From Lysobacterales bacterium (GTDB taxonomy: Bacteria > Pseudomonadota > Gammaproteobacteria > Xanthomonadales > Marinicellaceae), in assembly GCA_026988115.1 (NCBI GenBank), contig JALSLV010000047.1:1-64000 (forward strand): a stretch of DNA of 64,000 bases, written 5' to 3'. Positions within the stretch are counted from its first letter, which is position 1. Each line of letters starts with the position of its first letter. The notes below the pieces were generated by a model that made no database searches, was not told the DNA's origin, and saw only the letters and a list, made by a program, of their open reading frames with translations. Shown here piece after piece: positions 36,459 to 48,836 of the stretch. The translations under genes were made by a program, and so were the position numbers.

Positions 36459-37595
36459 TTATGCTCTTTGCGATAGTGGTGTCACTTTTCTTGGGCCAAC
36501 TCCAACGTAATCAGCATTGGGTCGAATAATGCGGTTATTGGCGCGTTGTTCCATCACATGAGCAGCCCAACCTGTGATTCGTGAACAGACAAATATCGGG
36601 GTGAACAGTTTGGTTGGGATGTTCATAAAATGATAAGCCGATGCGTGGAAAAAATCGGCATTCGGAAAAATGTGTTTTTCATCCCAGAGTTTTTTCTCAA
36701 CCGCGCAACTAACATCATACAGACATTCATCACCGACATCTTCGGACAATTCTTTTGACCAGCGTTTGATTAAAGCATTTCTGGGATCACTTTCGGTGTA
36801 AACTGCGTGCCCAAATCCCATGATTAATTGTTTGGTTGCCAACATATCATCGATTCCTGCAATGGCTTCATCAACCGATTTCCATTGCGACAACATTGCC
36901 ATGGCTGCTTCGTTAGCCCCACCATGAAGTGGTCCGCGTAGTGCGCCAACGGCTGCAGTTACGCACGAATACATATCCGATAAAGTCGAGGCAACAACGC
37001 GTCCTGTAAAAGTTGAAGCATTAAACTCGTGTTCGGCATACAAGATTAAGGACACGTCCATCACACGTGCATGTAAAGCATTGGGTTTTTCGCCACGTAG
37101 CATATGCAAAAAGTGTCCACCGATTGAATCATCATCCAAAGCCGTTTCGATACGCACACCTTCATGGGTAAACTTATACCAATAACAGATAATGGATGGA
37201 AAAGCACCAAGTAACCTATCGGCGGCATCTTGTTGCTGTGAAAAATCCATTTCAGGCTCTAAGTTACCCAACATAGAGCAACCTGTGCGCATGACATCCA
37301 TTGGGTGCGTGTCTTTTGGAATCATCTCCAAAGTGGCTTTTAAGGCTTCGGGTAAATCACGGTTAGCCATGATTTTGGCTGAATATTCTTGCAGTTGTGT
37401 TTGGTTTGGCAATTCACCATGAAAAATGAGGTATGCTGTTTCATAAAAGGTGGTGTTTTCGGCTAAATCTGCCACATCGTAACCGTTGTAAGTTAAGCCT
37501 GAGCCTGAAACGCCCACGGTGCATAATTTTGTTTCGCCAGCTGATTGTCCACGAAGACCTGCTCCGCCTGCTTTCTTTGCTTTTTGATCTGCCAT
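36459..37595 (-). CDS. prpC: 2-methylcitrate synthase PrpC
   Basis: The 378-residue enzyme condenses propionyl-CoA with oxaloacetate. It is a citrate-synthase fold protein with LCTVGVSGSGLTYNGYDVAD near the N terminus, the active-site His regions GPLHGGANEAAM and GFGHAVYTESDPRN, and the Asp/Arg region NADFFHASAYHFMNIPTKLF followed by SRITGWAAHVMEQ. Short length and the HGGANE form fit PrpC rather than GltA. ATG 37595 is preferred; upstream in-frame residues lack conservation. It lies downstream of prpB on the same strand, 96 bases apart. prpD or acnD are not in view. Confidence 0.92.
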   Translation of the reverse strand: MADQKAKKAGGAGLRGQSAGETKLCTVGVSGSGLTYNGYDVADLAENTTFYETAYLIFHGELPNQTQLQEYSAKIMANRDLPEALKATLEMIPKDTHPMDVMRTGCSMLGNLEPEMDFSQQQDAADRLLGAFPSIICYWYKFTHEGVRIETALDDDSIGGHFLHMLRGEKPNALHARVMDVSLILYAEHEFNASTFTGRVVASTLSDMYSCVTAAVGALRGPLHGGANEAAMAMLSQWKSVDEAIAGIDDMLATKQLIMGFGHAVYTESDPRNALIKRWSKELSEDVGDECLYDVSCAVEKKLWDEKHIFPNADFFHASAYHFMNIPTKLFTPIFVCSRITGWAAHVMEQRANNRIIRPNADYVGVGPRKVTPLSQRA

Positions 37596-37691
37596 AATGT
37601 TTTCTCTTATAATTTGTAGGATAGGCACTGCCCATCAGTTCTTATTAAATAGTTGTTAGTTGTTCCATGATGGGTCAGTCCCATCTTAGGA

Positions 37692-38576
37692 TTATTTTTT
37701 TGAAAATAACTCGTCTAATTTTTGTTCGTATCTGTGGTAGCCTAAAAACTCATACATGTCTTCACGCGGTTGCATAATGTCGATGACATTGCGTTGATGA
37801 CCGTCTTTTAATAGCGCTTCGTAAACATTTTGTGCTCCTTTATTCATAGCTCGGTAAGCACCACAGCAATAAAGAACAATGTCGACATCGTGTACGCTCA
37901 GTTCTTTTTGAGAGTATAATTCAGTTTTTCCAAATTCGGTTATATTGGCAAGTATTGGCACTTTTACAGCCTTTTTAATTTGTTGGTATTGGGCTAGTGA
38001 CTGTACCGCTTCAGGGAATATCATGTCGGCTCCCGCTTCTACATAAGCCACCATGCGTTCGATGGCTGAGTCTATGCCTTCAATGGCGATGGCATCGGTA
38101 CGTGCCATAATGACAAATTCATCATCTGTTCGGGCATCAACAGCTGCTTTGACTCTATCGACCATTTCTTGTTTGGTAACCACTTCTTTATTGGGTCGGT
38201 GACCACAGCGTTTTTCTGCTACTTGGTCTTCCATGTGCATGGCTGCAGCGCCTGCTTTGATAACACTGCGTGTGGTTCGAGCAATATTAAAAGCACCGCC
38301 CCAACAGGTATCAACATCAATTAACAGTGGCAATTTACACACATCGGTGATTCTTCTGGTATCAATTAATACATCCTCTAATGATGAAATACCTAAATCA
38401 GGCATGCCCAAAGAATTAGCTGCCACACCTCCACCTGATAAATAAATGGCTTTGTGTCCAATCTTTTCTGCCATAAGTGCGGTTAATGCAGTAATTGTTC
38501 CCACAACGCTCAGGGGTTTATTGTTGGTAACAGCCGCGCGAAATAAGGATCCTGCTGATTGATTTAGATTTGTCAT
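37692..38576 (-). CDS. prpB: 2-methylisocitrate lyase PrpB
   Basis: The 294-residue TIM-barrel enzyme splits 2-methylisocitrate into pyruvate and succinate in the methylcitrate cycle. Signatures: [20 protein letters not shown], the metal-binding DVDTCWGG, the catalytic [10 protein letters not shown] (isocitrate lyase superfamily KKCGH) and [16 protein letters not shown]. The length is the family's usual 290-297. It is the first gene of a prpB-prpC unit that disposes of propionyl-CoA, for example from branched amino acids. No PrpR-type regulator lies next to it. Confidence 0.95.
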
Positions 38577-38804: not shown

Positions 38805-38827
38805 AAATGTGATACCAATCACAAATT
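38805..38827. promoter_or_regulatory. CRP-type binding site
   Basis: TGTGA-TACCAA-TCACA (38808-38823) matches both consensus half-sites of the cAMP receptor protein, flanked by A/T triplets (AAA and AAATT). Its centre is about 69-70 bases upstream of the start point expected from the promoter at 38851, close to the class I activating positions. A crp gene is not in the window. Confidence 0.65.
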
Positions 38828-38843
38828 GTAAATATATTTACAA
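38826..38843. promoter_or_regulatory. Perfect palindrome, candidate operator
   Basis: TTGTAAATATATTTACAA is an 18-bp perfect palindrome between the CRP-type site and the -35 box (8 bases upstream of it). It fits a dimeric repressor or activator site. TyrR boxes are TGTAAA-N6-TTTACA; here the spacer is N4, so TyrR is not assigned. Confidence 0.55.
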
Positions 38844-38850
38844 ATAGGTG

Positions 38851-38878
38851 TTGACTATTGTTTTGAGCTAGGTATAAA
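38851..38878 (+). promoter_or_regulatory. Sigma-70 promoter of the five-gene operon
   Basis: TTGACT (38851-38856) and TATAAA (38873-38878) with a 16-base spacer; each differs from consensus at one position. The expected start is near 38885, leaving a leader of about 42 bases before ATG 38927. Confidence 0.7.
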
Positions 38879-38926
38879 TGGATTTATTGAAAATGGAAAG
38901 TACTAATATTAATGCAAGAGGTTATT

Positions 38927-40060
38927 ATGAAGAATACACAGACAAGAAAGATAGAGTTGGTTAAATCACAAGCTAATAAAAACATCCAGGTGCAACCCAT
39001 ACCTGTTGTTCTTAACCAGTGCAAGCGAGCGTTTACCACAAGACATGTCAATTTAGGTGATGCGCATACCCTGTTAACAGGAGAAGTCAAGCCCAAAGCA
39101 GGAGATTTGGTTCTTTGTGAAGTGACCCGTTTGAGGCAACATTGCCGCATTGAACAGCCAAATGGACGGCGTAGTCGAATGTTTGTGCATGATAAGATTG
39201 TTGTTTGTTATGGAAACCGCTATGCGCCTGATCAATTTGAATCAGTTGTTCCTGATGATTTAAGTGCATGCCATTTGGTGGCAGGTGGTGGCGTTGCCTC
39301 TCACATGCGTTTTAAAAGCCCGAAGGTTAAACCCGCTACTGAAATTCAGCCTTTAGGGTTGTTGGGCAATAAACATGGACAAGTTTTAAATCTGAATCAA
39401 TACAATGTTTTGACTCCTTCTAAAACAGAAACTTCAAAAAACATTCCAATTCTTCTTGTCTCTGGATCTTCCATGAACGCAGGCAAAACAACAACAGTTG
39501 CTAGCCTGATTAAAGGGTTAACAGCGGATGGCTTTAATGTTTCGGCTGCAAAAGTTACGGGCACAGGCTCTGGTGGTGATTTATGGCATTTTATTGATGC
39601 AGGTGTATCAAAAGCAATTGATTTTACCGATGCAGGGCTGGTTTCAACTTACCTTATGTCAAATCAAAGCTTGGTTCGGTTATTTGATGAAATGATAACT
39701 TATTTAAAAACACCGCAAACAGATGTAATCGTAGTGGAAGTGGCAGATGGTATTTTACAAGGTGAAACGAAAGCATTGCTTGAATCACCAGAAATAATCA
39801 ATGCAACAACAGCAATGGTTTATACGGCAGGTGATAGTTCTTCCGCAGTTTATGGCGATAATTGGTTGCAATCACTGGGTTATCAAGTTTTGGGAATATC
39901 AGGGGTCGTTTCATCTAATCCATTGGGTGTTCAAGAAGTGGAAAAAATGACCTCTACTCCAATTTTTAAGAAAAAAGAAACGGTGGCGGCGGGTTTTGGT
40001 CATCAATTGCATGACATGCTCTTGGAATTAAGTCTTTCACCCCTAAGAGTGGATAAATAA
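38927..40060 (+). CDS. P-loop NTPase, DUF1611-like, operon head
   Basis: The 377-residue product has an N-terminal region of about 165 residues without a recognised domain and a C-terminal P-loop domain. The P loop is GSSMNAGKTTT (about 180-190), followed by LIKGLTADGFNVSAAKVTGT and VIVVEVADGILQGET, a pattern shared by DUF1611-type and BioD/MobB-like NTPases. AGAGG lies 6-7 bases before ATG 38927, which is preferred over 38912. It starts a five-gene operon with an exporter, a hydrolase, a porin and a secreted repeat protein; gap to the next gene is 6 bases. Function unknown. Confidence 0.7.
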   Translation: MKNTQTRKIELVKSQANKNIQVQPIPVVLNQCKRAFTTRHVNLGDAHTLLTGEVKPKAGDLVLCEVTRLRQHCRIEQPNGRRSRMFVHDKIVVCYGNRYAPDQFESVVPDDLSACHLVAGGGVASHMRFKSPKVKPATEIQPLGLLGNKHGQVLNLNQYNVLTPSKTETSKNIPILLVSGSSMNAGKTTTVASLIKGLTADGFNVSAAKVTGTGSGGDLWHFIDAGVSKAIDFTDAGLVSTYLMSNQSLVRLFDEMITYLKTPQTDVIVVEVADGILQGETKALLESPEIINATTAMVYTAGDSSSAVYGDNWLQSLGYQVLGISGVVSSNPLGVQEVEKMTSTPIFKKKETVAAGFGHQLHDMLLELSLSPLRVDK

Positions 40061-40066
40061 AACGCC

Positions 40067-41743
40067 ATGAAAAATCAATTTTCACCCTTTAACCCTCCAG
40101 CCAATTATTGGAAGAAATCTCGATTCCAAATAGTGCAACTGATTATTAATGGTTTACTCAAATCATCGGTTGTTGTTGGCAGTTATTATTGGGTGAAAAA
40201 CCTTTCTTCGCAGATAAGGAATCAACAAGAAATCAATACGCACACCATTGTTTATTTGTTAATCGCAGCAGGATTAATTGTGGCTTTACGGGTGCATGAA
40301 CGCTACGTGTCAGAAAAAATGTCACAACGTTACATCAATTCACTTCGTTCGGGCTTGCTTAAACGTTTAATGCGTGCCTCGGTTAGAAACATTCAAGCGC
40401 GGACTATCGGAAACTTATCTTCACGTTTGGCAGGTGATTTATCTGCTTTAAAGCGATGGTTGAGTCTAGGGATTTCACGATTAATCACACACAGCTTGTT
40501 GTTGCTATTGACGACACTATTGGTTTTTAAGATAAATGCGTCATTGGGTGTTGTTATTTCATTAACCTTAATGGCTTTGTTGGTGTTGTCGGTGCTTGTT
40601 GGTGGTTTTTTAAAAAATAGCATTAGGGTTGTTCGGCGCAATAGGATTGCCATTCACAGTTTGTTGGTGGAACGCTTGTCGTCATTGGCTACAATTCGCT
40701 CTATGGGAAAAGAAGGGCGTGAAGTGGCACGAATTAATAAACAAGCAAAAAAATTAGAAAAAAACATTGCAAAACAGGGGGTGTTTTTGGGTTTTATCCG
40801 CGGCATAGGAGACTCTTCTTCATTAATTTTAATCAGTGTGTTTTTTGTCTTTAATGGGCTAAATAATCATGTTTTGGCATTAGATGAAATCACGGCTTTG
40901 ATAAGTATTATTTTGTTTTTAAATTCCCCAATTAGGGAATTGGGTAGGACGCAAGAATATTACCAAGGAGCGAAATTATCCATCGCAAAAATTGAAGAAT
41001 TGTATGCCATTCCCAGAATAGTCAGAGGCAAAAGCAGTCACGAAACGATTGAAAAAGATTCGGCTTCGCTTGGGCGAATTGAGTTAAGAAATACCACCGT
41101 AAAAGAAACGTTTAAACAGCTGTCTGTACGTGCCCAAAATGGTGAGCATATTGCATTGACTGGAACTAATGGCTCAGGCAAGAGCACATTAATTCAGATT
41201 GTACTTGGCTTGATAAAAGTGGACTCAGGTTTTGTTCGAGTTAATGGCAGTGCGCCCAATAAGACACCTTCGTTAGATAGAGCAAATCATATTGGTTTTG
41301 CCTCGGCAGAAGCGGGTCTTATCAAAGGCACTTTGTTGGAAAATTTATGTTACCGTAAAGGCAAAGAAAATTTGCAAGGATTTGATGAATTAATGGAGTT
41401 TTGTCAATTAAATAACCTAGTCAAAAAACTTCCCAAGGGTTTGAATACACGCATTTTAGAAAAAGGAAAGAACTTATCTTCGGGCGAAAAAGCACGCATT
41501 TTATTATTTAGGGCCTTATTAGGGAAACCTGCCATATTGATATTAGATGAGCCTGAGAGTTATCTAGATAAACAAGGTCTTGAAATCATAAAAAGCCTAT
41601 TAGGAGAGTATAAAGGTACTATTTTAATGGCGACACACAATATCGAATTAATAAAGCTTTGCCATAAAGAGTGGAATATGGATAGTTTAAAGAAAAACAA
41701 ATCTCCAGTGAGACTAATAAATGATTATGCAGAAAACAAATAA
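40067..41743 (+). CDS. ABC exporter (fused permease and ATPase) with altered Q loop
   Basis: The 558-residue product has six hydrophobic segments in residues about 20-300 and a C-terminal ATPase. Walker A is GTNGSGKST (about 367), signature LSSGEKAR, Walker B ILILDEP, and the H loop MATHN. The Q-loop Gln expected in V-P-Q before the GT(L/I)xEN segment is absent (FASAEAGLIKGTLLEN). It is probably a homodimeric inner-membrane exporter. The downstream hydrolase gene starts 23 bases before its stop codon. Cargo is unknown; no peptidase C39 domain is present, so a processed bacteriocin-type cargo is not indicated. Confidence 0.88.
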   Translation: MKNQFSPFNPPANYWKKSRFQIVQLIINGLLKSSVVVGSYYWVKNLSSQIRNQQEINTHTIVYLLIAAGLIVALRVHERYVSEKMSQRYINSLRSGLLKRLMRASVRNIQARTIGNLSSRLAGDLSALKRWLSLGISRLITHSLLLLLTTLLVFKINASLGVVISLTLMALLVLSVLVGGFLKNSIRVVRRNRIAIHSLLVERLSSLATIRSMGKEGREVARINKQAKKLEKNIAKQGVFLGFIRGIGDSSSLILISVFFVFNGLNNHVLALDEITALISIILFLNSPIRELGRTQEYYQGAKLSIAKIEELYAIPRIVRGKSSHETIEKDSASLGRIELRNTTVKETFKQLSVRAQNGEHIALTGTNGSGKSTLIQIVLGLIKVDSGFVRVNGSAPNKTPSLDRANHIGFASAEAGLIKGTLLENLCYRKGKENLQGFDELMEFCQLNNLVKKLPKGLNTRILEKGKNLSSGEKARILLFRALLGKPAILILDEPESYLDKQGLEIIKSLLGEYKGTILMATHNIELIKLCHKEWNMDSLKKNKSPVRLINDYAENK

Positions 41744-42536
41744 AAACAACCCAAAGTTTAGCGGCAGCATAAAGAAAGGCAGTTTATCTTCTTGTGATAA
41801 ATTAAAGTACTATTATGTTAAGGGCGGTGACGAAATAAGCAATATTGTGGTTTTGGTTCATGGTATTTCCAGAAATGCTGAAGAAATAATTAACAGTTTT
41901 AGTCAACAGATGAGTCCTGACAGCTTACTAATCGCACCAGTTTTTTCTAAAGATTATGCCACTGATTACCAACGCTTAGGTCGGAAAAGTAAAGGACCAA
42001 GAGCCGATTATATACTGCAAGCCACCATCAATGAGTTGTCAACTCAGTATGATATTGAAGTGAATAAGATAAATTTATTTGGCTTTTCAGCAGGAGCTCA
42101 ATTTGTGCAACGATATGCCTTTGCCCATCCTGCTCAGGTGAAAAAAGTAGCCATTGTGTCAGCAGGTTGGTATACCATGCCAAGCTTTAGTGAGTATTAC
42201 CCTTATGGTTTAAAGCTCAGAAATGAATTTTCGGATATTGATTTTAAGTTCATGCGATTCTTGAGAGTTAAATACCGTGTGTATGTTGGAGAAAAAGATT
42301 ATTTGCGTGATAAATCACTAAATAAAAGCAAAAAAGTTGACAGATTGCAGGGTCAAAACCGATTAGAAAGAGCTGAAAGTTGGACAAATAAAATGAATAA
42401 GTGTTTTGAAAAATACGCGATAAAAAACAGAGTCAGTTTAGAAGTTTTAGAGAATGTTACCCACGATTTTAGTTTAGCTGATAATTTGGGTCATCTGTGT
42501 GGAAAAGTTTCTCGTTGGTTTAAGCAAGAAGATTAA
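41721..42536 (+). CDS. Alpha/beta hydrolase (esterase/peptidase-like)
   Basis: The 271-residue product shows VVLVHGISRNAEEI (oxyanion region), the nucleophile elbow LFGFSAGAQF (Ser about 122) and a C-terminal His in NVTHDFS (about 247), the elements of a serine alpha/beta hydrolase; the acid residue is probably in VYVGEKD. No signal peptide is visible. Several Lys-rich stretches occur near the end (LNKSKKVDRLQ). It overlaps the ABC exporter gene by 23 bases and precedes the porin gene by 3 bases, so it belongs to the same system. Substrate unknown. Confidence 0.82.
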   Translation: MIMQKTNKNNPKFSGSIKKGSLSSCDKLKYYYVKGGDEISNIVVLVHGISRNAEEIINSFSQQMSPDSLLIAPVFSKDYATDYQRLGRKSKGPRADYILQATINELSTQYDIEVNKINLFGFSAGAQFVQRYAFAHPAQVKKVAIVSAGWYTMPSFSEYYPYGLKLRNEFSDIDFKFMRFLRVKYRVYVGEKDYLRDKSLNKSKKVDRLQGQNRLERAESWTNKMNKCFEKYAIKNRVSLEVLENVTHDFSLADNLGHLCGKVSRWFKQED

Positions 42537-42539
42537 AAC

Positions 42540-43643
42540 ATGAAATTTTTAATTTGTTTACTAATAATGGCATTTAGTTTGAACCTGAATGCAAAAATCA
42601 GCTACGATTTTGGTGCAAGAATGGAGGCTGATTATAGTTTTTATGATGACGACCAAAATATATTTCCTGATAAAGAATGGGATGTTAGGCGGTTTCGATT
42701 TGGTTTGTTTACTAAGTTTAATGAGAAGTTTTCTGCCTATTTTCAATCTGATATTTCTAATTTTGAGAGGAAGCGAAAAGGTGCAACACAAGCGGTATGG
42801 TTGCGTTATCGACCAAATAAGAGAAATGAATTTTTTGCAGGTAAAATGGAAATGCCATTTAGTCTTGAGAGCGTCAGTAACTCTAAATACCATTTTTTTA
42901 TGGAACGTTCTATTTCTAGTGCCTTAACTGAGCGTTTTGGAACTGGGATTAACTACATCCATTATGGGAAAGATTGGAATATTCGATTTGGACTATTTGG
43001 TGATGATCACTACGAACTGGGAAGTTCAAGTTTTTATGGCAAAGCCATGACGACCCGATTTGGTAAAAAAATAAAAATAGCTGGCAATAAGTTTTATTTT
43101 GGTGCTTCTTTTCAATATAGAAAACCTAATACATCAATCAGAATTAGAACGCGGCCAGAATCTAATGCATTTAATTATAAACTACTTGATACAGGTACAT
43201 TGTTTTTTATTAATTCGATTGAAAAGTATGGGTTGGAGGCTCTATGGAAGAAAGGCTTATGGACAATGCAAGCAGAATACATACAGAATAAGTTTACCCG
43301 AGATTTTGTGCAGCCAGACCTTAAATACGACGGTGGGTATTTTATTATAAGTAAAATATTTAATGGTCAAAGGCGATTTAGTTTTAGGAAAGGTGAGTGG
43401 GCATCGACCAAGGTAAAAAAACACAGAACTTGGGAAGTGTCGGCTCGTTACAGTTATTTAGATTTAACAGATGAAAACTTAAATGCAGGATACGAAGAAA
43501 ATATTTCATTAGGAATAAATTATTATATAAGCAATAAAAATCGTTTAATGTTTAATTACATACAAGCGAAAACAACACCCAATAGTTTTGGAATAAATCA
43601 AACACTAAATATACTTCAAGCCAGATTTCAGCTTGAGTTTTAA
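42540..43643 (+). CDS. OprP/OprO-like outer-membrane porin
   Basis: The 367-residue product has a signal peptide (MKFLICLLIMAFSLNLNAK) and a barrel of amphipathic strands resembling phosphate-selective porins: DVRRFRFGLFTKFNEKFSAY, LRYRPNKRNEFFAGKMEMPF, and FMERSISSALTERFGTGINY. It ends in the strand LQARFQLEF with the terminal Phe that BAM recognises. Many Arg and Lys residues suggest an anion-selective pore. It is gene four of the operon, 3 bases after the hydrolase and 12 before the repeat protein. Confidence 0.85.
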   Translation: MKFLICLLIMAFSLNLNAKISYDFGARMEADYSFYDDDQNIFPDKEWDVRRFRFGLFTKFNEKFSAYFQSDISNFERKRKGATQAVWLRYRPNKRNEFFAGKMEMPFSLESVSNSKYHFFMERSISSALTERFGTGINYIHYGKDWNIRFGLFGDDHYELGSSSFYGKAMTTRFGKKIKIAGNKFYFGASFQYRKPNTSIRIRTRPESNAFNYKLLDTGTLFFINSIEKYGLEALWKKGLWTMQAEYIQNKFTRDFVQPDLKYDGGYFIISKIFNGQRRFSFRKGEWASTKVKKHRTWEVSARYSYLDLTDENLNAGYEENISLGINYYISNKNRLMFNYIQAKTTPNSFGINQTLNILQARFQLEF

Positions 43644-43655
43644 TCAGAGGATATT

Positions 43656-45899
43656 ATGAAAATTTTTATATTACTTTTATTGATTGCGATTAGTGGTCAA
43701 GTTACAGCCATTAATGTGACCGCACCTATACGAACAAGCCATGTTGGACCCGATTCGAATAAAGAATACGATGCTGAAGAGTCTGCTGTTGCATTCAACT
43801 CACAAAATAATGAGTACCTAATCGTCTTTGAAGGAACAGACTCTATTACAGGAACAGGTGTTAATGTTAAGGCAGCTATAGAAATCTTTGCCCAAAGAAT
43901 TGATGCCACAACAAATGCCCCGCTTGCTCAACTGATAAAAATAAGCGAAATGGGACCCTCTGGCAATACCACCTATGATGCCAGAAAACCAGATGTAGTC
44001 TATAACCCACAAGCCAATGAATACATAGTGGTGTGGTATGGAGACACCAACTCTGTAAGCGGGGCTAATACGGTAGAAGGAGAGTTTGAGATATGGGGAA
44101 GAAGGATAAATGCAGCAAATGGACAGCCTGTTGGCTCGCAATTTAAAATTTCAGAAATGGGGCCGACTGCCAACCGTTCTTACGATGCTGTCGATCCTGT
44201 GATTGCTTATAATGAAATAGAAAACACTTATTTAGTGGTATGGCGTGGAGAAGATGGTAACACAGTAAATGCAATAGGAGAGTTTGAAATTTATGGTCAG
44301 CAGTTAAGTGCCTCTGGTGCTCAGATTGGTGCCAATGATTTTAGAATTTCGGATATGGGTGCGAATGGCCAGCCCATTTTTGATGCCTATTCACCATCAA
44401 TTGCCTACAATAAAACCAATAATGAATTTTTAGTGGTTTGGTATGGGGATGACGATAAAAATGGACATGTCAGTGGTGAGTTTGAGATATATGGCCAGCG
44501 CTTAAATGCAAGTAACGGGGCAGAAGTAGGGGTTAATGATTTTCAAATTTCTGAAACAGGTGTTCCTGGTTTTGCCACGCGATCAGCTCAGTTTCCATCA
44601 GTTGCGTGGAACAGCATTGATAACCAATACCTCGTTGTTTGGTCTGCTGATCCAGCCACAGGGGTTTATGTCGGTAATGAGTTTGAAATATTCGGGCAAA
44701 TATTAGCAGCAGATGGTAGTGAAATTGGAGATGATGATTTTGCTATCAGCCACATAGGACCCGATGGAAACAATAACTACGATGCCTTTAGACCACAGGT
44801 CGAATACATGAAGCAATCAAAGCAATATTTGGTGGCTTACCGAGCGGATACTGATGTGGATGGTGAGTTTGAAATATTTATGCAAAGACTTGATGGAAAA
44901 ACACAGCTTAGGCTAGGGCAAACAAGCCAAAGGATTTCACACGCAGGTCCTGAGGGGTCATTGGTCTATGATGCTAGGCGAGTGGACCTTGGCTATAACA
45001 GCAATACAGGCGAAGCCCTATTAATTTGGGAACAAGAAGATAATAACACTTCGCAAATATTGGGTGAATTAGAAATCTATGCCAGCACAGTAACTCCCTC
45101 AGAGTTCATTGCGGATTACACCACCTCAGGTTCGTGGTATGACGTCAATCGCAGTGGAGAAGGCTACATAATCGAAATGTTGCCCAATAATGGCGTGCTT
45201 GTGATGTGGTTTACGTATTTACCCAATCAAGCTGAACAGGCGTGGTTGATAGGCACAGGGAGTTATAATGGTAATAGAATCCTTTTGGAAAATGTACAAA
45301 TTACCTCGGGCGGTGTTTTTGGCCCTACTTTTGATCCTGCATTAGTGCAACGTCAAGTGTGGGGAGATATTTCCTTTGAATTTGATGGCTGCAATGCAGG
45401 AATTATCAATTACAATGCCATAAGTAGCAGTTACGGTGATGGCGATCACGCAACAACCCGATTAACCAGTTTATCTGGAGCAAATTGTACAACACATGCT
45501 CAATCAACAGATGTTTTAGATGGAATATCTGGTGCGTGGTATGACCCAACACATGATGGTGAGGGGTGGTTTTTAGAATACCTTGGAAGCAATAATGTCC
45601 TGATGTATTGGTTTTCTTATGATAACCTAGGTAACCAAAAGTGGATGTTAGATGTCGGAACGATTGATGCAAATAACCTCATTACTTTTGCCAATATGAG
45701 TCAAAAGAATGGCACGTTTTTTGGAGAAAACTTTAACCCAGCGAATGTCAATAATATCAACTGGGGAACCATGCAAATGCAGATAAATGACTGCAACTCA
45801 CTGTCGGTGAGTTACGATTCGCCTATCGGAATTTATGGTCAAGGTGTATTAAATGCTACCCGAATTACTGATATTGATCAGATAGAATGTCAGTTATAA
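43656..45899 (+). CDS. Secreted protein: seven propeller-like repeats plus two C-terminal WYDP/GEGW domains
   Basis: The 747-residue product has a signal peptide (about residues 1-19). Residues about 27-475 hold seven repeats of 60-70 residues with the core (I/T)S-x-x-G-x-x-x-x-x-x-(Y/F)DA, AYN, (E/Q)-(Y/F)-L-V-V-W, then FEI(Y/F)GQ; seven copies suggest a seven-bladed beta-propeller. Two related domains of about 110 residues follow (SGSWYDVNRSGEGYIIEML and SGAWYDPTHDGEGWFLEYL), each ending near a Cys pair region (DGCNAG, DCNSL). This C-terminal domain occurs in secreted proteins of Xanthomonas-like bacteria, as I remember. Last gene of the operon; probably surface-exposed or released, role unknown. 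Confidence 0.8.
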   Translation: MKIFILLLLIAISGQVTAINVTAPIRTSHVGPDSNKEYDAEESAVAFNSQNNEYLIVFEGTDSITGTGVNVKAAIEIFAQRIDATTNAPLAQLIKISEMGPSGNTTYDARKPDVVYNPQANEYIVVWYGDTNSVSGANTVEGEFEIWGRRINAANGQPVGSQFKISEMGPTANRSYDAVDPVIAYNEIENTYLVVWRGEDGNTVNAIGEFEIYGQQLSASGAQIGANDFRISDMGANGQPIFDAYSPSIAYNKTNNEFLVVWYGDDDKNGHVSGEFEIYGQRLNASNGAEVGVNDFQISETGVPGFATRSAQFPSVAWNSIDNQYLVVWSADPATGVYVGNEFEIFGQILAADGSEIGDDDFAISHIGPDGNNNYDAFRPQVEYMKQSKQYLVAYRADTDVDGEFEIFMQRLDGKTQLRLGQTSQRISHAGPEGSLVYDARRVDLGYNSNTGEALLIWEQEDNNTSQILGELEIYASTVTPSEFIADYTTSGSWYDVNRSGEGYIIEMLPNNGVLVMWFTYLPNQAEQAWLIGTGSYNGNRILLENVQITSGGVFGPTFDPALVQRQVWGDISFEFDGCNAGIINYNAISSSYGDGDHATTRLTSLSGANCTTHAQSTDVLDGISGAWYDPTHDGEGWFLEYLGSNNVLMYWFSYDNLGNQKWMLDVGTIDANNLITFANMSQKNGTFFGENFNPANVNNINWGTMQMQINDCNSLSVSYDSPIGIYGQGVLNATRITDIDQIECQL

Positions 45900-45940
45900 A
45901 TTGTAAATTAGTTTACATTCATCAAATTTGAGAATATAGT

Positions 45941-46050: not shown

Positions 46051-46093
46051 TTAAATGAATCTGAGAATTAACACTAAAATAAAGGAAAATATT

Positions 46094-46366
46094 ATGAAAA
46101 TCAAAAATAAAATAAAAATTATGTCTTGTACATTGGTACTTATTTCAAATTTTGCATGGTCACAACAAGTCACGAAAGTGAATAAAAACTGTTATGTTAT
46201 CAATAAAGATATTGTTGGCACTGGAGGATCTCCATCGGATGTTATTGGTACTGGAGGATCTCCAAGTGAAATAATAGGTATTGGAGGATCTCCAAGTGAA
46301 ATAATAGGTATAGGTGGTATTACTACTTATTGTACCCCAAAAAATAGTAGTGGCACAGATAGTTAA
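46094..46366 (+). CDS. Small secreted peptide with GIGGSPSE(I/V)I repeats
   Basis: The 90-residue product starts at ATG 46094, with AAGGA about 9 bases upstream; an earlier in-frame ATG at 46055 lacks a site. A signal peptide (about residues 1-26, ending FAWSQ) leads to a mature peptide of about 65 residues. Three to four 10-residue repeats, G(T/I)GGSPS(D/E)(V/I)I, sit between two Cys residues (KNCYV and TYCTP), so a disulfide could close the repeat region into a loop. No family recognised. The motif EIIGIGGI recurs at the C terminus of the DUF5666-like protein two genes downstream. A terminator follows. Confidence 0.65.
   Translation: MKIKNKIKIMSCTLVLISNFAWSQQVTKVNKNCYVINKDIVGTGGSPSDVIGTGGSPSEIIGIGGSPSEIIGIGGITTYCTPKNSSGTDS
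46217..46306 (+). repeat. 30-bp in-frame tandem repeat, three copies plus a partial
   Basis: Units begin at 46217, 46247 and 46277 (GG.A.TGGAGGATCTCCA), with a partial fourth at 46307. Copies two and three differ by one base. They encode the 10-residue repeat of the secreted peptide; copy number could change by slippage. Confidence 0.85.
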
Positions 46367-46420: not shown

Positions 46421-46507
46421 AACATTGGAATAATATATTTGCAAATAACTTTACAATTTAAATATTATGTTTTTTTAGAGATTAAATAACTTTGATAATA
46501 ACTTTAA

Positions 46508-47344
46508 ATGACTCATATGCCTAAAATTGCTGAACTCAATCGTTTATTAAGCTACATGGCTTATCGTATCTTTGAGCCGTTGGTTATTCTGTTTTTGAGA
46601 AATTCTGTTCCTTATCAAACTGCGTCGGATTGGTTAAAAAGAATCTATGTCGATGTGGCATTGGAAAATAAGGAGTTTAGGATAAACCCTGATAAAAAAC
46701 AAACCAAAACCAGAGTGGCTGTTTTAACGGGTTTATCGCGTGTTGAAATAGATCGGGTGTTGAAAATTGAAAAACCCCTAGAAGTAACAGAACAAAAATG
46801 GAATCGAGCAACCAAAGTTTTATCTGGGTGGTCGAATGACTCTAGGTACGTTAGTCAAAATGGACAACCTAAAGATTTACCAATTTATGGAGAGCATTCA
46901 TTTAGTTCACTAGTTGACAATTACAGCGGTGGAGCTACCATGCGTTCAGTTTTAGATGAATTAGTTTATGTGGGTTCCGTAGAAATTTGTAATAATAATG
47001 TTAGGTTAATAAGAACAGATTATGCACCAACTCCGAATAAGGCAAAATTGATTGATCTAGAGTTTTATGGAATATATATTGGGGAACTCTTAAACACCAT
47101 TACATATAACGATATTGAGGTTGATGAAGAGAAAAAAAGATTTCAAAAAATAGTTTTTCATCGAACTATTCCAGAATCTAATAAAAAAGAAGCCATTGAT
47201 TTTATTAAAGAAAAAACGGATGTACTGTTGTCAGTAGTTGATCAAAAATTGTCAGAGCTCGCGGAGAGTAAGTTATCAGAACCTACAACTCGATTAGGGT
47301 TGGGAACATATTATTTTGAAGAGGTAAATCATGAAAAAAATTAA
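46508..47344 (+). CDS. DUF6502 family protein
   Basis: The 278-residue product has the features I associate with DUF6502: an N-terminal helical region (LNRLLSYMAYRIFEPLVILF, then RIYVDVALENKEF), the putative helix-turn-helix-like stretch KTRVAVLTGLSRVEIDRVLK, and WNRATKVLSGWSNDSRYVSQ followed by a Gly-rich segment and a helical C-terminal half. There is no membrane segment, so it is cytoplasmic; the HTH-like part hints at DNA binding but this is inference. Its end overlaps the start of the DUF5666-like gene by 14 bases, a coupled pair. The function of the family is unknown. Confidence 0.75.
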   Translation: MTHMPKIAELNRLLSYMAYRIFEPLVILFLRNSVPYQTASDWLKRIYVDVALENKEFRINPDKKQTKTRVAVLTGLSRVEIDRVLKIEKPLEVTEQKWNRATKVLSGWSNDSRYVSQNGQPKDLPIYGEHSFSSLVDNYSGGATMRSVLDELVYVGSVEICNNNVRLIRTDYAPTPNKAKLIDLEFYGIYIGELLNTITYNDIEVDEEKKRFQKIVFHRTIPESNKKEAIDFIKEKTDVLLSVVDQKLSELAESKLSEPTTRLGLGTYYFEEVNHEKN

Positions 47345-48836
47345 AACTATCCTTGTGTTGTTAATTATAATATTTTCTACACTTATAAATGCCCAGTTGA
47401 TAAAAGTGAATGGTATTCGAGATTTTATTATCGATAGCAAAACATTGGTTTCTCTTGATGGTGTAATCATAGACAATAATACACTGTTTGAAATAATAGG
47501 ACATGGCGGATATAAAATTAGATTTAGAGTCGGTGGGGATGTAAACACTACAATTTCTACCGGAACTTTGAGTGAACTAGACTTTATATCTGATATTAAG
47601 GGGCCTATAACTAACCTTAATCCTTTAACTATATTGGAGCAACCGACTTTTATTACATCAGACACAAATCTTATAAATTTAATATCTGTAGCAGACTTGA
47701 ATGTAAGTGACTTATTAAAAGTTAGTGGTTCAATTAACGAGGTTGATAACTCTATGCAATTATCACGATTAGAATTAGATAACGGTCTTTCGGAATGGAA
47801 ACTCCGTGGTTTTGCAAGAAATATTACGGCACTAAATTTTACCATTGGTAATTTAACCATTAATATTAATGCAGTATCCGCAATAGATTGTAGCAATGGT
47901 TTTATTGAAAATGTTTTTGTTGAGGTTAAGGCAATGCCTGATGCCAGTTATGTTGCAGGCAATCCATTGTCGACGCTAACAAGTATACAGTGCCAGACTC
48001 CAGATGTTTATGAAGACCCTAATAACAGTATTCCAGTCGTAGTTGAAGCGATGGTTTCGGAAATTATAGACTTATCATCGTTTAGAATTAATGACTTAGT
48101 GGTGTTTTTTGATGGCAGTACAAGTTTTGATAACGGTGAGTCAGAGCATATAGATGTCGGGACCAAAATAGAAGTGCAAGGATTTCTTGATACCAATACC
48201 CGTTTTATTAATGCAACAACTATTCGATTTATTCACCACAGAGTTAAATTTGTGGCGCCAGTTAAGCCTGCCGATATTACCATAGGCGAGGGTGTTTTAA
48301 TTTTTGGCAAGCAGGTTTCTATTACACCACAAACAAGAGATGACGATGCCATTGTTTCATCTGGTCTTATAGCAGAACGACAAGTAGAAGTAAGAGGTTT
48401 TGTCGACTCAATGGGAAATGTTTATGCCTTGCGAGTCAAAGACAAAGGCACACCCGATAATACAGACACTAAACTGAGAGGTGACATTACCGCTTTAAAT
48501 CAGCCAATCTTTGAACTGGATGGAGTTGCAATAGATGCAAGCGCCTCGCTATTTGAGATAGAGACTGGTTTTGTTGATATTAATGCATTTTTTGCAATGC
48601 TTCAAGTGGGTATGCAGGTCAAAATTGAACATGCAACATACGATGTAAATACGCAAATACTGACGGGAGGCGTGATTGAATTGATAGAACAGGAATTAGA
48701 AGATGATCCCGAAAATACGAACAAATCAAACGTGATTTCAGCACCAAAAGAAATAATTGGTATTGGTGGAATAGGATTAGCGACTGTGACTAAAGTTTCC
48801 GTTATAGAAACAATATTTAAGGCAAGTTTTGAATAA
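47331..48836 (+). CDS. Secreted DUF5666-like protein with C-terminal GIGGIG motif
   Basis: The 501-residue product has a signal peptide (about residues 1-22, ending INA) and is built of several repeated OB-like beta units with hallmarks such as VKVNGI, DFIIDSKTLVSLDG, VEVRGFVDSMGNVYALRVKD and LRGDITALNQPIFELDGVAI, the pattern of DUF5666 proteins. Cys residues are few (DCSNGF, IQCQTP). Near the C terminus EIIGIGGIG repeats the motif of the secreted peptide at 46094. The ATG lies inside the DUF6502 gene, so the two are translated together. Probably periplasmic or extracellular; role unknown. Confidence 0.7.
   Translation: MKKIKTILVLLIIIFSTLINAQLIKVNGIRDFIIDSKTLVSLDGVIIDNNTLFEIIGHGGYKIRFRVGGDVNTTISTGTLSELDFISDIKGPITNLNPLTILEQPTFITSDTNLINLISVADLNVSDLLKVSGSINEVDNSMQLSRLELDNGLSEWKLRGFARNITALNFTIGNLTININAVSAIDCSNGFIENVFVEVKAMPDASYVAGNPLSTLTSIQCQTPDVYEDPNNSIPVVVEAMVSEIIDLSSFRINDLVVFFDGSTSFDNGESEHIDVGTKIEVQGFLDTNTRFINATTIRFIHHRVKFVAPVKPADITIGEGVLIFGKQVSITPQTRDDDAIVSSGLIAERQVEVRGFVDSMGNVYALRVKDKGTPDNTDTKLRGDITALNQPIFELDGVAIDASASLFEIETGFVDINAFFAMLQVGMQVKIEHATYDVNTQILTGGVIELIEQELEDDPENTNKSNVISAPKEIIGIGGIGLATVTKVSVIETIFKASFE

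Follow-up and report, generated by a model that had tools for sequence, protein, structure and literature searches.

A palindrome between a CRP-type site and a sigma-70-like promoter as a probable operator of a HetR-like DUF6502 protein

The 18-bp palindrome at 38826-38843 of the window, by which we mean the whole 64,000-nucleotide stretch of Lysobacterales DNA analysed, is best explained as an operator of the DUF6502 protein encoded at 46508-47344 on the plus strand, a protein that would control both its own gene and an operon of five genes (probability roughly 0.83). The first-pass annotation of this region had proposed catabolite control plus a specific regulator; the specific regulator would probably be this DUF6502 protein, whose gene stands at the end of the cluster. 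Three features read directly from the sequences argue for this: the conserved order of CRP-type site, operator and promoter, the recurrence of the operator before DUF6502 genes, and the co-variation of the DUF6502 recognition helix with the operator half-site. In the proposed mechanism, DUF6502 would be a dimeric helix-turn-helix factor, with both dimerisation and binding predicted, that recognises 16-bp dyads made of two 5-bp halves around six bases (5-N6-5). It would act on its own gene and, in this and a sister genus, on the promoter that drives genes 1-5. At that promoter the dyad lies between the putative site of a CRP/Clp-type activator (~ -70) and the -35 box, and bound DUF6502 would, somewhat more probably than not, block the contact between CRP and RNA polymerase (anti-activation).

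All three elements claimed for the 74 bases from 38805 to 38878 were present when the sequence was read directly. A CRP-type site, TGTGATACCAATCACA, occupies 38808-38823 (TGTGA-N6-TCACA, centre 38815.5) and is kept in relatives. It is followed by a perfect 18-bp palindrome, TTGTAAATATATTTACAA, at 38826-38843 (centre 38834.5, near -50), the proposed DUF6502 operator, which encloses the dyad TGTAA-N6-TTACA at 38827-38842, and by a sigma-70-like promoter on the plus strand, TTGACT-N16-TATAAA, at 38851-38878 (-35 at 38851-38856, -10 at 38873-38878). With transcription predicted to start ~ 7 bp past the -10, at ~ 38885, the centre of the CRP-type site falls near -70, in agreement with the distance first estimated. 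The promoter alone is not above chance, because a consensus promoter scan of the window returned 7 promoter-like sites compared to 5.4 in shuffles; the TTGACT-N16-TATAAA pair was absent from the list produced by that scan. With up to three mismatches allowed, the palindrome was found twice in the window compared to 0.21 expected. Genome-wide it was found at 10 sites compared to 8 for its backward control and is therefore not a dispersed motif, and the exact TGTAA-N6-TTACA dyad, with 6 copies in the genome compared to 7 for the control, showed no overall enrichment. On these two genomic counts, a large palindrome regulon was rejected. A TyrR box, TGTAAA-N6-TTTACA, was also rejected, as its hexamers stand 4 bp apart at 38826-38843, not 6. 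TGTGA-N6-TCACA occurred 10 times in the 3.51-Mb genome compared to 0 for its backward control, and three of the 10 copies are one repeat at contig ends: a CRP-like palindrome, TGTGAAAGTATTCACA, lies ~ 100 bp from the contig end in L030, L031, and L033 of the same genome and is probably part of a repeated element, because the same copy stands near three contig ends. It is conservation in relatives that decisively sets the sites of the promoter region apart from chance.

The site sits between the divergent prpB-prpC genes on the minus strand and a cluster on the plus strand. The prpC and prpB genes (2-methylcitrate cycle) occupy 36459-38576, and they and the operon may share control from the intergenic region. 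Gene 1 (38927-40060) encodes a P-loop NTPase with weak MobB/CobB similarity; its reading frame opens at 38912, and the likely start is the ATG at 38927, which has AGAGG before it and is matched by relatives. Gene 2 (40067-41743) encodes an ABC transporter of the exporter type with fused membrane and ATPase domains, gene 3 (41721-42536) an alpha/beta hydrolase with matches below the curated cut-offs, gene 4 (42540-43643) a Porin_O_P outer-membrane porin identified by a family match, and gene 5 (43656-45899) a 747-aa protein without a family match. The operon had been likened to uptake or degradation operons, a description that this set of products does not support. Downstream, a second exact dyad, TGTAAATTAGTTTACA (45902-45917, one of the six in the genome), lies upstream of a small reading frame and the DUF6502 gene. 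The small reading frame (46094-46366, plus strand, opening at 46055) encodes four (V/I)(V/I)G(T/I)GG repeats after a start that appears by eye to be signal-peptide-like, and a one-mismatch dyad, TGCAAATAACTTTACA (46440-46455), overlaps the likely -35 of the DUF6502 gene, whose product is the proposed HetR-like regulator of the dyads. A gene for a DUF5666 repeat protein, the usual partner of DUF6502, follows on the same strand at 47331-48836.

Matches to gene 1 were found in 18 of the 61 genomes searched, the window's own genome included. The core of gene 1, ABC transporter and hydrolase (38927-42536 in the window) is widely conserved without the operator: at 66 distant gene-1 loci (L078-L143), from cyanobacteria, alpha- and gammaproteobacteria, actinobacteria, and others, an ABC match accompanied gene 1 at 55, a hydrolase match at 45, and a porin match at 19. 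A search of the neighbours of these distant genes for the function of the operon found no pathway in common; the neighbours included a histidine kinase pair, PGA_cap, and an OprB porin in a cyanobacterium, a phosphatase and an antiporter in a symbiont, and a subtilase in Novosphingobium.

When the palindrome was looked for before gene 1 in relatives, as the first-pass annotation had suggested, it was found to be kept together with the CRP-type site and the promoter. The named close relatives are MAGs that carry labels such as Alcanivoracaceae and Lysobacterales. TGTAA-N6-TTACA was present exactly before gene 1 in nine genomes (L001, L004, and L006-L012), a count that leaves out L002 and L019 as near-copies of L001 and includes L011 and L012, a closely similar pair; L006 has a second dyad nearer gene 1, and the conserved element counted is the other one. 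In eight of the nine genomes, a CRP-like site stands 19-21 bp upstream of the dyad with no more than one mismatch, and in the ninth (L008) with two; a TTGAC/TTGAT-like -35 followed 6-8 bp downstream of the dyad in all nine. Chance placement would put a site of one mismatch or none at these offsets with a probability of ~ 0.0009 per locus. The G and C and the symmetry of the TGTAA/TTACA half-sites were kept in 9/9, although the central six bases vary. Neither dyad nor CRP-like site was found before gene 1 in L013, L014, L069, and L076. Counted over the 14 named close loci, the exact dyad precedes gene 1 in 9 of the 12 with upstream sequence and was not found there in L069, L076, and L077.

The product of 46508-47344 matched PF20112 with 124.2 bits (cut-off 27) over residues 12-273. 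Pfam assigns no function to this family; we propose for it a role in DNA binding, with predicted operators. DUF6502 matches were found in 37 of the 61 relatives, in 99 of the 369 genomes sampled from the class, and in none of 14 control genomes, and for a family of this breadth with no assigned function the predicted operators and specificity pattern make a DNA-binding role testable. The exact dyad precedes the DUF6502 gene in six of the eight named close loci that hold one, L073 and L074 excepted; L074 has the operon dyad, but no copy with up to two mismatches before DUF6502. Gene 1 and DUF6502 diverge in L071, where each has one dyad. Only two of the 66 distant gene-1 loci have DUF6502 nearby. 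One of them, L079, is the only distant locus with an exact dyad within 400 bp before gene 1; here DUF6502 is divergent from gene 1 with three dyads between, and a CRP-like site is lacking. The other, L098, has a DUF6502 of the K type described below and no TGTAA dyad.

This association extends to DUF6502 genes in general. Perfect 5-N6-5 dyads were present before 33 of 52 non-redundant DUF6502 genes, mostly from relatives (mean 18.8 and maximum 26 in 100 shuffles), with spacers of 8, 10, and 12 likewise above their shuffles; 7 of 59 upstream regions had been dropped as near-duplicates or as shorter than 150 bp. A held-out set of 69 DUF6502 genes was drawn from other families and fetched by family, not by motif (one of 70, the near-duplicate L193, was dropped), and only the spacing was fixed beforehand. 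In this set, 5-N6-5 dyads preceded 48 genes (mean 15.8 and maximum 29 in 60 shuffles) and dyads with 6-bp halves preceded 31 (mean 4.6, maximum 11); spacers of 4, 8, and 10 were also raised, and odd spacers were mostly near background. TNNAA halves, the letters that had been expected, occurred in none of the 69 genes, so that the spacing rule stood and the letter rule was rejected. Exact TGGGA dyads number 1-8 per genome in the K type, with a total of 49 over 15 genomes compared to 12 for the control. In L038, three overlapping TGCAA-N6-TTGCA dyads 12 bp apart, with one more nearer the gene, lie before DUF6502, an arrangement as for cooperative binding.

The half-site was found to vary with the predicted recognition helix. 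DUF6502 genes were classed by the residue following the conserved GLxR, a grouping by sequence pattern that put a few genes into odd residue classes; 7 of 127 genes were dropped as near-duplicates, those with less than 150 bp upstream having been excluded earlier. Alignment A2 contained one or few genes per genome, with L057, L059, and L070 excluded for an in-frame stop in the matched stretch, and alignment A4 contained 66 of the 70 held-out proteins. In the K class, 29 of 63 genes had TGGGA upstream and none had another of the named half-sites, whereas TGTAA was present in 8 of 12 genes of the V-then-E class. The 11 genes of the T/M class had TGCAA in six cases and TGTAA and TGAAA in one each, and all three genes of the W class, in which W replaces R, had TCTAA. 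Across 88 protein clusters, 37 agreed with this helix/half-site pattern and one contradicted it, a T/M type with TGTAA, and none of 5000 permutations reached 37, a test made on the data that had also yielded the pattern. In 30 of the 58 K clusters, no half-site of the four was found upstream. The arginine and the half-site G change together in the W group, which would fit a contact in which this arginine reads the G.

The position of the dyads before DUF6502 genes bears on the direction of control. In the K type, the TGGGA dyad is centred on the gene's own -10 box in 17 of 32 genes (the 32 include one near-duplicate pair), and these 17 promoters have a TTGACA-like hexamer 16-18 bp upstream. 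Because of this placement, autorepression by DUF6502 is likely. Members of the subfamily to which the window protein belongs (L066, L067, and L070) have a dyad whose right half serves as the DUF6502 -35 or overlaps it. For the operon promoter, we lean modestly toward anti-activation. The strongest competing explanation, to which we give real but clearly lesser weight, is co-activation, in which DUF6502 and CRP would activate the operon from ~ -50 and ~ -70, with DUF6502 repressing its own gene. Co-activation would account for an operon dyad that lies upstream of the -35 and does not cover it, and the 19-21 bp between CRP-like site and dyad in nine genomes is the distance expected of side-by-side proteins; HetR, according to PMC7476756, activates many targets. 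It fits less well with the own-gene operators of the K type, which occupy a repressor's place on the -10 in 17 of 32 genes, and with the operon promoters, several of which retain a consensus TTGACA and would need less help.

The promoter region resembles that of the CytR-CRP system of E. coli, in which a specific operator is likewise packed against a CRP site before a sigma-70 promoter, although CytR belongs to the LacI family and lies between two CRP sites, whereas the arrangement here has one CRP-type site, involves another protein family, and is predicted from sequence.

The expectation of two regulators stood in part. The CRP-type site and the specific operator were borne out by their retention in relatives, and the genome encodes a protein (L145) that we take, by eye from its recognition helix, to be of the CRP/Vfr/Clp type. 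Control by cAMP or carbon catabolites stays a conjecture, as Clp-type proteins can respond to ligands besides cAMP. Nine cNMP-domain matches were found in the genome, several belonging to helix-turn-helix proteins, together with one class III cyclase match, so that a TGTGA-N6-TCACA site at an activating position, a CRP-type protein, and a cyclase, as looked for in a CRP-dependent promoter, are all present. These proteins raise the alternative that a CRP/FNR-family paralogue of altered specificity occupies the palindrome, which we consider improbable. TGTAA-N6-TTACA does share the 5-N6-5 geometry of the CRP site and contains the NtcA-type site, TGTA-N8-TACA, and the nine matches would supply candidates. 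Judged by eye, however, the recognition helices are presumably CRP-like (L145) or FNR/DNR-like (L149-L152) and none is NtcA-like, and such a paralogue would leave unexplained both the tracking of DUF6502 by the dyad across families and the match between half-site and DUF6502 helix. Least probable of all is that the palindrome is no more than an UP element, a stretch of A/T-rich DNA touched by the alpha subunit of RNA polymerase and here spanning ~ -42 to -59. Its position and A/T tract do resemble the UP-element consensus, but the half-site G, C, and symmetry are kept in 9/9 although the centre varies, and before DUF6502 genes this dyad occupies other places relative to the promoter.

The closest structural match of DUF6502 is HetR. 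For the window protein, an AlphaFold model (pLDDT 87.5) had HetR as its best Foldseek match (E 0.029, probability 0.96), and in VIA-align HetR held ranks 1-3 (Z 9.4, rmsd 6.5, 228 residues, model residues 15-273), the next unrelated row having Z 6.7 over 53 residues. The K subfamily, modelled from 66 other sequences (pLDDT 88.9), also had HetR as its best Foldseek match (E 0.0068) and at ranks 1-5 in VIA-align (best Z 8.1, rmsd 10.5, 216 residues). In a comparison of the HTH-flap-hood arrangement, HetR rows spanned the whole chain in both models (Z 6.3-9.4, rmsd 6.5-10.9); Z values of this size are middling for helical proteins. Foldseek gave no match at E 0.001 or better for either model. Searched up to E 10, the window protein showed no match to PF03574 (HetR), and hhalign of DUF6502 against HetR, with 4 or with 34 HetR sequences (34 of 39 HetR loci), was not significant (probability at most 1.8%); we gave no weight to a weak second alignment in the C-terminal part. 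PDB sequences searched with the DUF6502 profile yielded no helpful match (best E 0.043). Because the Z values are middling, Foldseek gave no E of 0.001 or better, and the sequence profiles are unconnected, we call DUF6502 HetR-like rather than HetR, with homology unproven.

Besides giving the best full-length structural match of two models, HetR resembles DUF6502 in a helix-turn-helix near the N-terminus, in autoregulation (predicted for DUF6502), and in the GGG-based inverted repeat of the K subfamily. The HetR site needs GGG-N5-CCC (PMC4192349), whereas K-type DUF6502 would use GGG-N8-CCC; the dyads upstream of DUF6502 genes are TGGGA-N6-TCCCA, TGTAA-N6-TTACA, and others, not GGGnnnnnCCC. 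HetR autoregulation is positive (PMC7476756), whereas the DUF6502 operators suggest repression, and HetR belongs to filamentous cyanobacteria, DUF6502 to gammaproteobacteria. PMC7476756 and PMC12756182 call the HetR fold unique and place the patX-hetR module only in filamentous cyanobacterial clades, and a comparison with the HetR helix-turn-helix is made in PMC10359603 for another domain, DUF2285. No mention of DUF6502 was found in the literature searched, which leaves most subscription papers outside.

A further likeness is that proteins encoded beside DUF6502 carry G-[TS]-G motifs, like PatS, HetN, and PatX. A DUF5666-like gene lies inside the fetched flank of 63 of 80 DUF6502 loci. In the genes directly 3′ of DUF6502, G-[TIS]-G occurred 245 times in 108 genes (shuffled mean 66.7, maximum 88), and G-[ALV]-G was depleted in the same genes (31 compared to 68.8); ten locus identifiers were skipped as repeats in this count, and loci with less than 120 bp downstream or no 30-aa reading frame were excluded. 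K-type partners often have GIGGTG near the N-terminus. Repeats near some DUF6502 loci read EGTGI, and DEGTGG or NGTGR, and neighbours with these repeats are presumably Marinicella-type. In cyanobacteria, HetR is inhibited by RG(S/T)GR peptides (PMC7761841), and HRGTGR is named among the inhibiting peptides (PMC12756182). A link between G-[TIS]-G and these hood-binding peptides, drawn by analogy, is speculative; the resemblance is short, and the motif may instead be a structural turn of DUF5666. It is a doubtful proposal, and one that we would sooner expect to fail than to hold, that DUF6502 is a branch of the HetR kind widespread in gammaproteobacteria, autoregulated and set by an adjacently encoded G-[TS]-G peptide or exported protein. 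The candidate signals would be DUF5666 proteins with GIGGTG or small proteins repeating EGTG, NGTGR, SGTGI, or VIGTGG. If true, HetR-PatX would be one case of an older and broader signalling module with the window operon as one target, and a HetR-like regulator with G-[TS]-G partners in gammaproteobacteria would bear on the origin of the cyanobacterial developmental switch. Beside divergent DUF6502 paralogues, long EGTG, NGTGR, SGTGI, or GGGTGVQV arrays were observed (L063, L163-L168, and L170-L172), with EKSGTGIEK repeats in L170 and L171.
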